The position numbers and the translations under genes are program-made. 64,000 bases of DNA from Actinomycetota bacterium (GTDB taxonomy: Bacteria > Actinomycetota > Thermoleophilia > Gaiellales > Gaiellaceae). Below, in pieces: positions 50,652 through 61,568 of this stretch; positions within the stretch are counted from its first letter, which is position 1; each line of letters opens with the position of its first letter. A model generated the notes under the pieces. The model ran no database searches. It was not told the DNA's origin and saw only the letters and a list, made by a program, of their open reading frames with translations. The stretch spans positions 248,001 through 312,000 of the forward strand of contig WLID01000001.1 of assembly GCA_009702325.1 (NCBI GenBank), given 5' to 3'.

Positions 50652-51580
50652 ATGAGGGCCGATAGCGGGCGGAGTGCGGTGGGGCGCGTCACAGCGAGAA
50701 CGCACGGTGCCAGTGCTCCGCGCGGGCTGCGGCTGGGGGAGCGCGTCCGGCAACTGCGGGTCTCATCGAACCTCACGCAGTCCGAGCTCGCCGGCGACCG
50801 ATTCTCGAAGGAGTACATCTCCCAGATAGAACGTGGCAAGACCCGTCCCACCAACGAGACGGTCGCATGGCTGGCGGCCCGGCTCGGCGTCGAACTCGAA
50901 TTTCTCCAGAGCGGTGTTTCGAGCGAGGAGCGCGACCGCGCCGAGGCGATCATTGCCCGCGCCGAAGCGCACATCAGTCGCCGTGAATACGGCCAGGCGA
51001 TCGGTGCATTCCGTGAGGCCGCCGCCTCGGTCGCTGGGTTCGCGCTCGGTCGTACGCCGAACGTGCCAAGGAGCGCTACGAGGAGCTCGACGATGCGCTG
51101 AATGTCGGGCGTCTGCTGAACAATCTTGGCAACCTCGACTTCCTGCTCGGCCACCCCGATTCCGCAATCGAGCGACTGACTGCCGCGCTTGAGGTTGCCG
51201 CGTCGCTGGGAAGCGCCGACGAGCAGGCGACCGCGATGTCATCGCTTGCGCAAGTCCATCTCCGGAACGGGGCGGTTGAGCTTGCCGAGCAGGAGGCCCG
51301 GCAGGCGCTGGCGCTTCTCGGTGCGCGGGAGGATCGGCTCGACGAGATCGGAAACGCCGGTCTTGTCCTCGGTCGTGCCCTGCTCGAACAGGGGCGCCTC
51401 GACGAGGCCGACCGTGCCTTCGCCGATGCCGAGAGCGCGCTTGAGCAGCTCTCGTCGGGGTCACACAAAGCAGCCGTGTGGATCGCGCAGGGCGACGTCG
51501 CTGCACGCCGCGGCGACCAGACAAAGGCAGCCGAACTGTTCCGGCGCGCTGCCGAAACGCTCCAAGACTTCAGGTTCTAG
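50652..51580 (+). pseudogene. XRE-TPR regulator with internal deletion and frame break
   Basis: The first part, from ATG 50652, encodes an XRE helix-turn-helix (LRLGERVRQLRVSSNLTQSELAGDRFSKEYISQIERGKTRPTNETVAWLAARLGV) and the first TPR (ISRREYGQAIGAFREAAASVAG). Frame is lost near 51040. In another frame the protein resumes WVRARSYAERAKERYEELDDALNVGRLLNNLGNLDFL and continues through TPR repeats to 51580. Total coding length is about 310 residues against about 440 in the paralogue at 59838, so roughly 120 residues were deleted out of frame. The HTH, start and last repeats are well preserved, suggesting recent damage. The peptide gene 21 bases downstream is intact. Confidence 0.8.
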
Positions 51581-58199: not shown

Positions 58200-59000
58200 C
58201 TACTCTTCGCCGCGCGCGAGTTCCTTCGAGCGTTCCATCGCGGCGTTGATCGCGTTCAGGAACGCGGCTCGCACGCCTGCCTGCTCAAGCTCGCGGATCG
58301 CGCGGGTTGTGGTTCCGCCCGGAGACGTCACCATCTCGCGTAGCTCGACCGGGTGCACACCTTCGTCACGCAGCAGCTTGGCTGTGCCGAGCATCGTCTG
58401 CACGACGAGCCGCGTCGAGATCTCGCGGGAGAGGCCGAGCAGCAGGCCGGCGTCGATCATCGCCTCAGCAAGGAGTGCGTAGTAGGCAGGGCCCGAACCC
58501 GAGACAGCAGTGATCGCGTCCATCGCGCTCTCAGGCACCTCGACGACGTCGCCGACGGCGCGGAGCACCGTGGCGGCGCGATCCATGTGCTCGCGGCCGG
58601 CGTGACGGCCAGCGCAGATGCCCGCAATGCCTTCATGCACCGTCGACGGTGTGTTGGGCATGGCCCGCACGACAGGAACGTCGTCGGGCAAGTGCCGTTC
58701 GATTGCGGCGGTAGGAATGGCGGCTGCGACAGACACCACGGTCTGTGAGGCGGAGAGCAGGTGTCCGATCTCGCCGAGCAGCGCTGAAATGTCCTGCGGC
58801 TTCACGGCCAAGACGACAACATCGGCGCCCCGAATCGCGTCGGGGTTCGACGTCGTGGCGTCAACCTTGTAGCGCTCGGCGAGTGCCTGAGCCCGATCTT
58901 CGCGGCGCGAGGTCGCGACAATATCTGCCCAATCGGAGCTACGGAGCCCTGCGATGAGGGACTCCCCGATCTTGCCCGCGCCCAGAATTGCGATCCGCAT
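58200..59000 (-). CDS. proC: Pyrroline-5-carboxylate reductase
   Basis: A 266-residue NADPH-dependent reductase completing proline synthesis, starting at ATG 59000. The Rossmann motif is ILGAGKIGESLIAGL; VVLAVKPQDI, RAMPNTPSTVHEG, AVSGSGPAYYALLAEAMIDAG (substrate loop) and TSPGGTTTRAI complete the family signature. Its first 62 bases are overlapped by the upstream glycosylase gene, which is longer than usual coupling overlaps. Confidence 0.93.
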   Translation of the reverse strand: MRIAILGAGKIGESLIAGLRSSDWADIVATSRREDRAQALAERYKVDATTSNPDAIRGADVVVLAVKPQDISALLGEIGHLLSASQTVVSVAAAIPTAAIERHLPDDVPVVRAMPNTPSTVHEGIAGICAGRHAGREHMDRAATVLRAVGDVVEVPESAMDAITAVSGSGPAYYALLAEAMIDAGLLLGLSREISTRLVVQTMLGTAKLLRDEGVHPVELREMVTSPGGTTTRAIRELEQAGVRAAFLNAINAAMERSKELARGEE

Positions 59001-59841
59001 TCCCTAAGGGTACGAGTCCGGCGTGGTATCCCGCCAATAAGTACACGCTTGCGATGCCCTGAAACTCGCCGTAGGGCTCGAGCAAGACGTCTGTTTCCTC
59101 CGCTTCGACGTGTCGTCCCCAGAGTTCTCCGGCGAGTTTGACGAGCCCAAGGTCACGCGCGAGGCCCCGGTCGAAGCGACCCAAGCCCTCAAGGAAGACG
59201 ACACCCACAGACCAGGGCCCGAGTCCCCGTTCCCGGTCGAGTCGCACTGCTGCGGCGTCACTCTCGATGCCGTGAAGACGCTCTGGGTCAAGCGAGGAGA
59301 GGATCCGAACGAGCGCTGACCCACGACGGGCGCCAAGCCCAAGCCGCCGGAGTTCGGCGGGTGCGAAGCGGGCAAGTTCGGCCGCCACCGGCGCAGCGTG
59401 CAACCCATCGCCCACGAAAGGAGTCGCGGCGCGAATCACGTTGCGCTCGATCTCGCGTGCCCGCTTCGCGAGGATCAGCTGGCCAGCGAACGCGCGCAGT
59501 AGCGCCTGCGTCACCGTGTCGGTACGGAGCGGCCGCAGTCCGCGCAGCGACTTCGTGGCGGGGCCGACCATCGGGTCGTCGGCAAACCGTTCGAGGAACG
59601 GCGTGTGGTCGTCGTCGATCCCGAGCATGAAACGCATGCGGTCGATCCCGTGCTGGGAGGGCGCCTCGATCACGATCGTCCCGTCGGGACGTTGAATCGC
59701 CCGAGCTATCTCGTGGCTCGCCGGCGTGCGTATCGCCGCTGTCAGCACGCCATCGCGAAAGCGGCGGGTGGCGTCAGATGCGTGCCGTGCCGAAAGCCGC
59801 AGCGAGTACGGCCCGGCGGGCCGCAACTCGGCGACGATCAC
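58939..59841 (-). CDS. AlkA-type DNA-3-methyladenine glycosylase (HhH-GPD family)
   Basis: A 300-residue protein starting at GTG 59841, overlapping the XRE-TPR stop by 4 bases. The N-terminal AlkA_N-like part precedes the HhH-GPD core, where RERGLGPWSVGVVFLEGLGRFDRGLARDLGL contains the helix-hairpin-helix and the catalytic Asp. It would remove alkylated bases from DNA, beginning base-excision repair. After AGYHAGLVPLG the frame runs 62 bases into proC with an atypical RNSGRGQDRG end, so a natural stop may have been lost. Confidence 0.8.
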   Translation of the reverse strand: MIVAELRPAGPYSLRLSARHASDATRRFRDGVLTAAIRTPASHEIARAIQRPDGTIVIEAPSQHGIDRMRFMLGIDDDHTPFLERFADDPMVGPATKSLRGLRPLRTDTVTQALLRAFAGQLILAKRAREIERNVIRAATPFVGDGLHAAPVAAELARFAPAELRRLGLGARRGSALVRILSSLDPERLHGIESDAAAVRLDRERGLGPWSVGVVFLEGLGRFDRGLARDLGLVKLAGELWGRHVEAEETDVLLEPYGEFQGIASVYLLAGYHAGLVPLGNADRNSGRGQDRGVPHRRAP

Positions 59842-61154
59842 CGGTCGGCCGCGACCGAGTCGTTCGCGAGGGTGCCAGCGAGCGAGGCAGCGCGATCGAG
59901 CACGTCAAGTGCTTCCGATTCCCGGCCGGAATGGCGAAGGAATCGCGCGAAACCTCGCAGCGACTCGGCGTGCTCGCGCACCGTGCCGACACCCTCAAGT
60001 GCTCCAATTGCCTCGCGCCAAGCAGCCTCAGTCCCTTTGTCGCCCGTCGCGGTCAGCGCCTCGGCCAGCGCCCACGTGGCGAGCGCGCGCTGGTTTGGCA
60101 CGTCAGCAGCGAGACGCTGTGCCTCACGTGCGAGGTCGGCTCCGCGTGGGGCGTCGCCCGTACGGGTCGCGATCATCGCTTCGAGCCACCGAACGATCGC
60201 GAGGTCGCTGTCGGCAGGTCGTGGGCCAAGCAGTGCCACGGCCTGGTCGATCTGTCGGGCGACATCCGCGACGTCTCCTGTCGACGCGAGCGCTGCCGCC
60301 GCGCAGGAGAGGTAGGCGCGGGCAAGGTGGATCGTGTCCTCTGTCGCCTCAAGCAGCGCCACAGCCCGACGAAAATGTTCGAGGGCCGTTTGCGGCTGGG
60401 AGTTTTCGTAGGCGATACGGCCGAGTGACCAGTAGAGCCGCACTCGCGTGTAGGGATCGGCGGCCTCGTTCGAGATCTCGAGCGCATCCTCGACGACCTC
60501 GTTTGCCCGGCGGAGATTGCCGAGATCGGTGAGGGCGTAGCTCAAGTAGGTGCTGAAGCGGACACGGGATGCCGAGTCGTCGGGTGCGAGCTGCTTGAGA
60601 TCGGTGAGCGTGCGTTCAAAGAGGTCGGCGGCGCGTCGCGGATCTCCCGCCATCGAGTAGGAATGGCCGAGCGTCGCGAACACGTCGGGACGGGAGGCTG
60701 CCGTCACGAGCTCCGAGGTGATGGCGCGCTCGAGAAGTTCGATCGCGAGTGCGTGCTCGCCGCGTGCCGCAGCGGCGAGGCCGAGGACGATTTCGGCACG
60801 GACGGCGGAGGTTTCATCGCCTGCGGTGCGGGCCTCGCTGAGGAGTCCGGTGATCTCGCCTGGCGCGTCCCCTTCGAGGCGGAGTCGCAGCTCCGCGTCG
60901 GCGAGGCGCAGCTCCCTGCGCGCGACATCGCCGAGTTCGGACCCTGTTTCGAGATAGTCGGGCGATACGCCGAGCTTCCGAGCGAGCATTCGGAGCGCCT
61001 TCACAGACGGGCGCCGAGCGTCCGCCTCGATGCGTGAGATGTACGCGTAGGAGACACCGGGCGACGAGAGCTCGCGCTGTGACAGACCACGTTCGAGCCG
61101 TAGACGCCGCAGGCGCGCGCCGACAGTCTCGGGAGTTCCAGAAGCGCTTGTCAA
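59838..61154 (-). CDS. XRE-TPR regulator (intact), candidate peptide receptor
   Basis: A protein of about 438 residues from TTG 61154; GTG 61232 would add 26 poorly conserved residues that overlap the promoter area, so the start is uncertain. An N-terminal XRE helix-turn-helix (VGARLRRLRLERGLSQRELSSPGVSYAYISRIEADARRPSVKALRMLARKLGV) is followed by about 350 residues of helical TPR repeats (for example DPYTRVRLYWSLGRIAYENSQPQTALEHFRRAVALLE). The XRE plus TPR layout is that of RRNPP receptors (Rgg, PlcR, PrgX), whose TPR groove binds short peptides. It is divergent from the 28-residue FWGP peptide gene and leads an operon with a DNA glycosylase. Confidence 0.82.
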   Translation of the reverse strand: MTSASGTPETVGARLRRLRLERGLSQRELSSPGVSYAYISRIEADARRPSVKALRMLARKLGVSPDYLETGSELGDVARRELRLADAELRLRLEGDAPGEITGLLSEARTAGDETSAVRAEIVLGLAAAARGEHALAIELLERAITSELVTAASRPDVFATLGHSYSMAGDPRRAADLFERTLTDLKQLAPDDSASRVRFSTYLSYALTDLGNLRRANEVVEDALEISNEAADPYTRVRLYWSLGRIAYENSQPQTALEHFRRAVALLEATEDTIHLARAYLSCAAAALASTGDVADVARQIDQAVALLGPRPADSDLAIVRWLEAMIATRTGDAPRGADLAREAQRLAADVPNQRALATWALAEALTATGDKGTEAAWREAIGALEGVGTVREHAESLRGFARFLRHSGRESEALDVLDRAASLAGTLANDSVAADR

Positions 61155-61190
61155 GGCGCCGTGATCATGCAGGCCCTTTCGGACAACGTC

Positions 61191-61297
61191 AAACGGGTCA
61201 CGTCCGTTTTGGGAGTCAACAAAAGAGGACACTTGACAACAAATGTCGGCACCTCTCTTCTATGGGGTGAGCAACAGCAGAAGGAGGTGAGAAAACG
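61191..61297. promoter_or_regulatory. Divergent control region between XRE-TPR gene and peptide gene
   Basis: It contains AAACGG-GTCACGT-CCGTTT (inverted repeat from about 61192), GTCAA/TTGAC arms around 61215-61237, and ACTTGAC at 61231-61237 overlapping a TTGACA -35-like element (61233-61238). A weak -10 lies near 61258. The peptide ribosome-binding site AAGGAGGTGA begins at 61281. Confidence 0.5.
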
Positions 61298-61384
61298 ATG
61301 GTCAAGTGGATCCAGCTCGGCGCCCTCGCCGGGGCAACCGTTCTTGCCGCACTCGTCGGCGGCGGCCTCTTCTGGGGGCCGTAG
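61298..61384 (+). CDS. Short hydrophobic peptide ending in FWGP (candidate signal precursor)
   Basis: A 28-residue peptide from ATG 61298 to TAG 61382-61384. The front MVKWIQLG is short and basic, then a hydrophobic core (ALAGATVLAALVGGG), then LFWGP at the very end. AAGGAGGTGA 8-10 bases upstream matches the 16S tail perfectly. The 14 bases gaaggaggtgagaa are identical to the leader of the peptide at 51602. The opposite-strand neighbour is the XRE-TPR gene. Size, hydrophobicity and partner match the short hydrophobic peptides of Rgg systems, but a small membrane protein is the alternative. Confidence 0.55.
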   Translation: MVKWIQLGALAGATVLAALVGGGLFWGP

Positions 61385-61522
61385 GTAGCGGGTGCTCGAC
61401 GGGTACCGGAAGACGGGTGGGGACCCCGCGCAGCCCGGCTGGTCTGGTCACTCCAACGATGGTGCGAGATGCCCAGACGTCTTAGGCCGCTCGTCGAGAT
61501 CGGTCGTTGTACCACGGTTACG

Positions 61523-61552
61523 CACGGGCGGAGCACACACACTCCGCCCGTG
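61523..61552 (+). terminator. Hairpin terminator after the FWGP peptide gene
   Basis: An 11-bp stem (61523-61533 / 61542-61552, arm cacgggcggag) with loop cacacaca is followed by tcgtt. It separates the peptide transcript from the methyltransferase gene. The 140 bases between peptide stop and hairpin contain no gene. Confidence 0.65.
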
Positions 61553-61568
61553 TCGTTAACCTCAGCGC

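Follow-up and report, generated by a model that had tools for sequence, protein, structure and literature searches.

Receptor/peptide systems of the RRNPP type have been described as Firmicutes systems, their mobile elements included (PMC10075063). The Rgg/SHP and ComR/ComS pairs of streptococci resemble the locus reported here in that a receptor of the XRE and TPR type is adjoined by a small gene, whose product has a basic start, a hydrophobic core and a short C-terminal pheromone; in the literature found they are restricted to Firmicutes. The type II XIP is rich in tryptophan, a likeness to the W-containing ends of the peptides studied here. With respect to Rgg and ComR, our system differs in a longer TPR array (about nine helix pairs), in the W-G-P end and in the leaderless genes of 6-9 residues. 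For AloR/AloP of Paenibacillus, many receptor/peptide pairs per genome and C-terminal signals of six residues are described, as here; unlike here, the phylum is a different one, the propeptides carry an export signal and we met no mention of leaderless forms (PMC7425212). Among RRNPP receptors, PlcR of the Bacillus cereus group (PlcR/PapR) is the best match of our regulator profile (E 5e-13) but a weak match in fold (TM 0.34), and with about 290 aa it is shorter than the regulators described here (about 430 aa). The PapR propeptide is longer, is exported through Sec and has its gene on the same strand as that of PlcR; the small gene described here is mostly divergent.

Actinobacteria are said to use small molecules for signalling, and we know of no cognate small peptide for the NsdA family of TPR regulators of Streptomyces. 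This family (NCBIfam NF053720) is likewise one of actinobacterial TPR regulators, and the regulator under study matches it weakly, with 36.5 bits, far below the family cut-off of 75 bits. A 2016 review lists no quorum-sensing report for the class Thermoleophilia (PMC4748050). In agreement with an earlier note on this DNA, which knew of no such system in actinobacteria of this kind, our search of the literature, with subscription journals and preprints outside its coverage, returned no report of RRNPP-type systems in Actinomycetota. The pair presented here, from a Gaiellaceae genome (Actinomycetota), therefore lies outside the known RRNPP range, a range that is descriptive and not mechanistic.

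Results

The window locus encodes an XRE-TPR regulator and a small divergent gene

The window, a stretch of 64,000 nucleotides, belongs to a metagenome-assembled genome (MAG) of 1.9 Mb. The earlier note had described an XRE DNA-binding domain followed by a long TPR array and, across a divergent control region of 143 bases, a 28-codon gene preceded by a ten-base Shine-Dalgarno, and had read the two as a possible quorum-sensing-like system. Both the small gene and its Shine-Dalgarno are present (Table 1). The domain assignment is upheld by Pfam (HTH_3, E 4.6e-12; TPR families down to 6e-13) and by the AF2 model, and the length of the control region is exact if the regulator starts at TTG 61154. 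The regulator frame is open further upstream, to GTG 61232, which would give 464 aa; this start is unlikely, because the promoter-like site of the regulator sits inside the GTG extension and would fall within coding sequence. TTG 61154, chosen from the promoter position, is thus the likelier start. The resulting 438-aa protein, with its N-terminal HTH and C-terminal TPR array, falls in the 250-500 aa range of RRNPP receptors, and orthologues with 85% identity are present in two congeners.

Table 1. Positions in the window of the elements that make up the locus
Feature	Position	Strand	Remarks
XRE-TPR regulator	59838..61154	-	438 aa from TTG 61154; Pfam HTH_3 and TPR, AF2 model, orthologues
Regulator promoter-like site TTGACG-17-CATGAT	61164..61192	-	0.0 expected by shuffling
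Conserved control element GTCAACAAAAGAGGACACTTGACAACAAATGTC	61215..61247	+	inverted repeat GTCAA-13-TTGAC plus the TTGACA of the peptide gene
Ten-base Shine-Dalgarno AAGGAGGTGA	61281..61290	+	complementary to 16S tail; 7 nt before ATG
Peptide gene MVKWIQLGALAGATVLAALVGGGLFWGP, 28 codons, stop TAG	61298..61384	+	conserved family; purifying selection, strongest at C-terminus
Strong hairpin, 11-bp G+C-rich core, no T run	~61516..61561	+	-32 kcal/mol, z -8.3

The peptide of the window gave no family match in Pfam or NCBIfam. The earlier note was right that a hairpin bounds the gene, but a terminator straight behind the peptide stop was rejected: the region 61382-61450 gives z +0.84, and the strong hairpin lies about 130 nt further on, where it is the probable end of the peptide transcript. 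Of 77 related loci, 51 show a hairpin that exceeds the 95% shuffle level and lies no more than 200 nt past the stop, in many cases no more than 50 nt. As for the C-terminal FWGP, it is indeed found in the window, where it represents one version of a family-wide W-G-P, W-P or P-W-W ending.

Downstream of the regulator and on its strand, a 300-aa frame (58939-59841; window 58200-59841) looks DNA glycosylase-like by eye and is without a Pfam match; proC comes next. Similar frames stand behind the regulator in many relatives, so that the locus looks syntenic. A further XRE-type HTH is encoded at window 50700-51008 (G000:C1:298700-299008, plus strand, L003) as part of an open frame some 158 aa long; it has no peptide gene and is a weak relative of the regulator (37% over the HTH).

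A conserved inverted repeat overlaps the promoter of the peptide gene

The promoter-like site of the regulator falls inside the divergent region of 143 bases or right on its border. The inverted repeat GTCAA-13-TTGAC overlaps the TTGACA of the peptide promoter, and in three congeneric loci about 35 bases of the control element, GAGTCAACAAAAGAGGACACTTGACAACAAATGTCGG, are invariant between flanks that vary. Across 77 related control regions, TTGACAAC occurs in 22 (0.4 in shuffles), CGTCAA, the reverse of the regulator's TTGACG, in 32 (4.6 in shuffles) and AGGAGG in 36 (7.4 in shuffles). The genome-wide search for the operator returned one site per genome, the peptide promoter itself, apart from one match with three mismatches in G012; a wider regulon, considered on the basis of operator matches, was therefore rejected as not visible by this search.

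A second class of control regions carries a GGGCCCGGGGGCTGTCC-like sequence shortly before the peptide Shine-Dalgarno (L025, L028, L029, L031, L032; L015, L021, L027, L039, L040), and part of these also have TTGACTTTTGTC further upstream.

The small gene accompanies most of the related regulators

Relatives of the regulator were gathered by protein and profile searches that covered related genomes, the collection of named genomes and 349 genomes of the class, and the DNA upstream of them was read; the related named records are MAGs of Gaiellaceae and Thermoleophilia. Long frames were scanned for a Shine-Dalgarno, a basic start, an uncharged hydrophobic stretch and a length of 20-36 aa, without demanding Trp, while the scan for micro forms did demand W and yielded 18 peptides, to which L062 and L226 were added by eye.

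The earlier note had named the absence of a conserved peptide beside orthologous regulators as refuting its claim. The claim withstands this check strongly, as such a gene adjoins 87 of the 111 related regulators, which belong to Gaiellaceae and one sister family: a divergent long form beside 61, a long form on the same strand beside six and a micro form beside 20, with none at the remaining 24. The observation is thus confirmed, and it is far more general than the earlier note could see. The 67 long peptides measure 24-32 aa and share the basic start, the hydrophobic core and a C-terminal W; together with the 28-aa peptide of the window, they fall in the range of RRNPP propeptides (10-100 aa, beside the receptor). 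Some genomes, such as G084 and G013, hold several pairs with distinct peptides.

The background of these scans is low. No W-ended long match was found in 262 kb of flanking DNA, and the single micro match there seems to be a duplicate of a genuine peptide gene; beside distant XRE homologues a peptide gene was found in 0 of 15 cases. Moreover, when a profile built from the first 29 peptides was searched against 121 genomes, it ranked the regulator-adjoining peptides at the top, and in genomes outside the training set its seven strongest matches all lie beside such regulators (G070, G073, G076, G084, G085, G092, G094).

In one clade (L106, L111, L120, L047, L123, L231) the peptide gene stands upstream of the regulator on the same strand and starts with GTG; the endings are SPWPGL, APWPGK, GTIWPVTV, GTIWP, GIWPGVR and TVWPPF. 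In L093, a close relative of the L055/L056 pair, the regulator is intact and the peptide gene cleanly gone, possibly a signal-blind variant.

Selection is concentrated on the C-terminus of the peptide

Although the scan did not ask for it, W is found within the last six residues of 71 of 74 long ORFs. Comparison of 17 pairs of related peptide genes gave 133 changes on 384 synonymous sites and 118 on 990 nonsynonymous sites, corresponding to dN 0.13 and dS 0.47 (dN/dS about 0.28). The last eight codons are the most constrained (dN 0.063, dS 0.42; dN/dS about 0.15), the hydrophobic core giving about 0.32. Tandem peptide genes (L067, L109, L065, L073) differ in their leaders but not in their ends, which read GGDPWGPH (two copies), GGCPWGP (two copies) or LGTEPWGPW (two or three copies). 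In L062 the unit ETRSGVWPWGS occurs twice inside one frame. Little weight can be placed on the pair MVRSRLGWF/MLRSRLGWF, since the two loci hardly differ over the whole region. As judged from these comparisons, the functional part of the peptide is the C-terminus and not the membrane segment, since the ends are the most constrained, the tandem ends are identical and one genus is reduced to MxPWGx.

In some lineages the gene is reduced to six to nine codons

Altogether, the peptides range from 6 to 32 residues. The micro forms are mostly 6-9 aa long, below the range of RRNPP_detector. In genus g6, six codons preceded by a strong Shine-Dalgarno stand in place of the long gene, the products being MAPWGC, MAPWGS, MLPWGS, MHPWGS, MYPWGC and MWPWGE; the third bases of the Pro and Gly codons vary, and the amino acids are constant. 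When the MxPWGx pattern was searched in 103 genomes of the family, it was recovered in nine of the ten genomes of g6 and nowhere else, save for one chance match without a stop codon. Other micro forms are MRSKLPWW, MRSKTQWW, MREKWPIW, MREKLPIW and MRDKWPWW in another genus, and MYAGRLWP, MYGGRIWP and MPGGKAWP in the sister family. On the regulator tree, which left out the MRxKxPxW regulators, the PWG micro clade (support 99) is nested in the long-peptide group and the WP clade lies elsewhere; therefore, the short form arose more than once.

Long forms, with their basic start and hydrophobic core, look exportable; micro forms, with neither, do not. The lack of a leader in the latter suggests that some members of the family may signal intracellularly. 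A dedicated peptide gene of comparable length is mccA, the seven-codon gene of the microcin C7 precursor (PMC6495379), which differs in encoding an antibiotic precursor that has a modifying enzyme and is not a regulator's partner; the genes described here reach six codons.

In G121:C91 (L163, L173), the six-codon gene occurs twice on one contig in opposite orientations, either a real inverted duplication or an assembly artefact.

A candidate ligand site lies in two adjacent TPRs

The AF2 model of the regulator (pLDDT 94) comprises an N-terminal helical DNA-binding domain followed by about nine helix pairs. The profile match to PlcR extends over HTH and TPRs, and no other RRNPP receptor figures among the best 60 PDB profile matches listed; in the fold comparison PlcR takes rank 30, and the nearest structures are TPR superhelices of a general kind. 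As HTH families and TPRs are common, membership among the receptors rests mainly on the pairing. Five residues, R190, L195, D201, W233 and R237 (position 1 being the first HTH residue of the model), hardly vary among regulators with a peptide gene and are for the most part replaced in distant homologues that lack one. In the model they map to the A helices of two adjacent TPRs, R190, W233 and R237 being on concave helices, and together they may form the ligand site.

Discussion

These data lead us to favour, with a probability of about 0.7, an RRNPP-type switch, complete in itself, in which the small gene would provide the ligand and the XRE-TPR protein the receptor, so that the interpretation of the earlier note is supported; the 24 regulators with no detectable peptide count against it. 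The ligand would consist of the last five to nine residues, approximately VGGGLFWGP in the window, and the divergent protein would act as cytoplasmic receptor and transcription factor. In the translated long form, the basic start and the hydrophobic stretch may work as a leader for N-in export. Once released, the C-terminal piece would re-enter through an oligopeptide permease and might in this way signal from cell to cell. The window genome encodes one SBP_bac_5 oligopeptide-binding protein and M50 proteases, which are not specific, being found in most bacteria. The peptide is predicted to bind the concave TPR face near R190, W233 and R237, and binding would alter the grip of the regulator on GTCAA-13-TTGAC; as this repeat overlaps the -35 of the peptide gene, the first target would be the peptide gene itself, in a feedback, and any wider regulon would come in addition. 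In several lineages the leader has been lost and the gene would be the ligand alone (MxPWGx, MRxKxPxW, MxxGxxWP), whose action would then have to take place within the producer unless it exits by another route.

Such leaderless forms do not fit simple export-based quorum sensing. They speak for a private intracellular feedback, in which the peptide binds the regulator inside the producer and never passes from cell to cell, the leader setting turnover or membrane location. This possibility, which we regard as doubtful though worth keeping in mind, is favoured by the loss of the leader, which has affected at least two clades of the regulator tree besides the MRxKxPxW group of another genus, and by the remaining 6-9 aa, in which no export signal is left; intracellular action of this kind is reported for ComS of Streptococcus mutans (PMC6211226). 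However, most members keep the basic start and the hydrophobic core under selection, as if export mattered, and a transporter could carry short peptides out.

The position of the hairpin behind a small frame recalls a cis-acting leader peptide, where ribosome stalling at the W-G-P end would control the hairpin and the next gene, in a TnaC-like attenuation. In many members Pro precedes the stop codon, and at many loci the next gene is a Wzy_C-type ligase. Nevertheless, we found no conserved downstream gene under hairpin control: at other loci the gene encodes a glyoxalase, an OTCase, a NUDIX or an NlpC/P60 protein, all unrelated, and some genes, such as those for GMP synthase and an amino acid permease, run towards the peptide gene. 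Because the downstream genes vary, the constant partner is the peptide and not a target operon; for the same reason, control of the neighbouring O-antigen ligase gene was rejected as a general explanation of the main purpose of the locus. Attenuation becomes very improbable when it is added that many peptides lack the Pro end (PWW, PWS, PWGH, FYRGW), that it would give no sense to tandem copies or to the repeat inside L062, and that it would leave the pairing with the regulator and the same-strand variants unexplained. We give hardly more credit, and if anything slightly less, to the reading that the XRE regulator represses a small membrane toxin or membrane protein, as in a toxin-antitoxin-like module or a membrane sensor: the positive start and the hydrophobic stretch resemble small membrane proteins and XRE proteins are common antitoxins, yet the forms of 6-9 aa, too short to span a membrane, keep the W motif, the most constrained part is the C-terminus, and TPR receptors are not typical antitoxins. 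Finally, the small frames are very short and unannotated in MAGs, as chance or an annotation artefact would have it, but the near-zero background, the purifying selection, the ten-base Shine-Dalgarno, the conserved position and the hairpin leave next to no room for this explanation.

Within the receptor/peptide reading, we lean towards a private TPR receptor lineage of Gaiellaceae, whose signals would come from dedicated transcription units, shrunk in some lineages to six codons (MxPWGx, shorter than mccA), the gene being then approximately the unprocessed signal after loss of the export leader. The pairs of these soil and freshwater bacteria look like a new branch of peptide signalling outside Firmicutes. 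If this is true, a widespread multi-paralogue receptor/peptide family exists in a common and hardly cultured soil lineage, and synthetic peptides allow a direct test. The series from 32 aa with a leader to six bare codons would represent a natural experiment on the parts that a pheromone gene requires and on the need for export, and it indicates that functional genes can fall far below every annotation cut-off.

The window genome contains a second pair, consisting of a paralogous regulator (G000:C9:108952-110172; L002, L051) and the peptide MKTKAFTFITALVTLAGIAAGVGWGP. This peptide is almost identical in two congeners, in one of which it is duplicated in tandem (L034), and the convergent genes downstream of the pair encode an AOC-like protein and GMP synthase.
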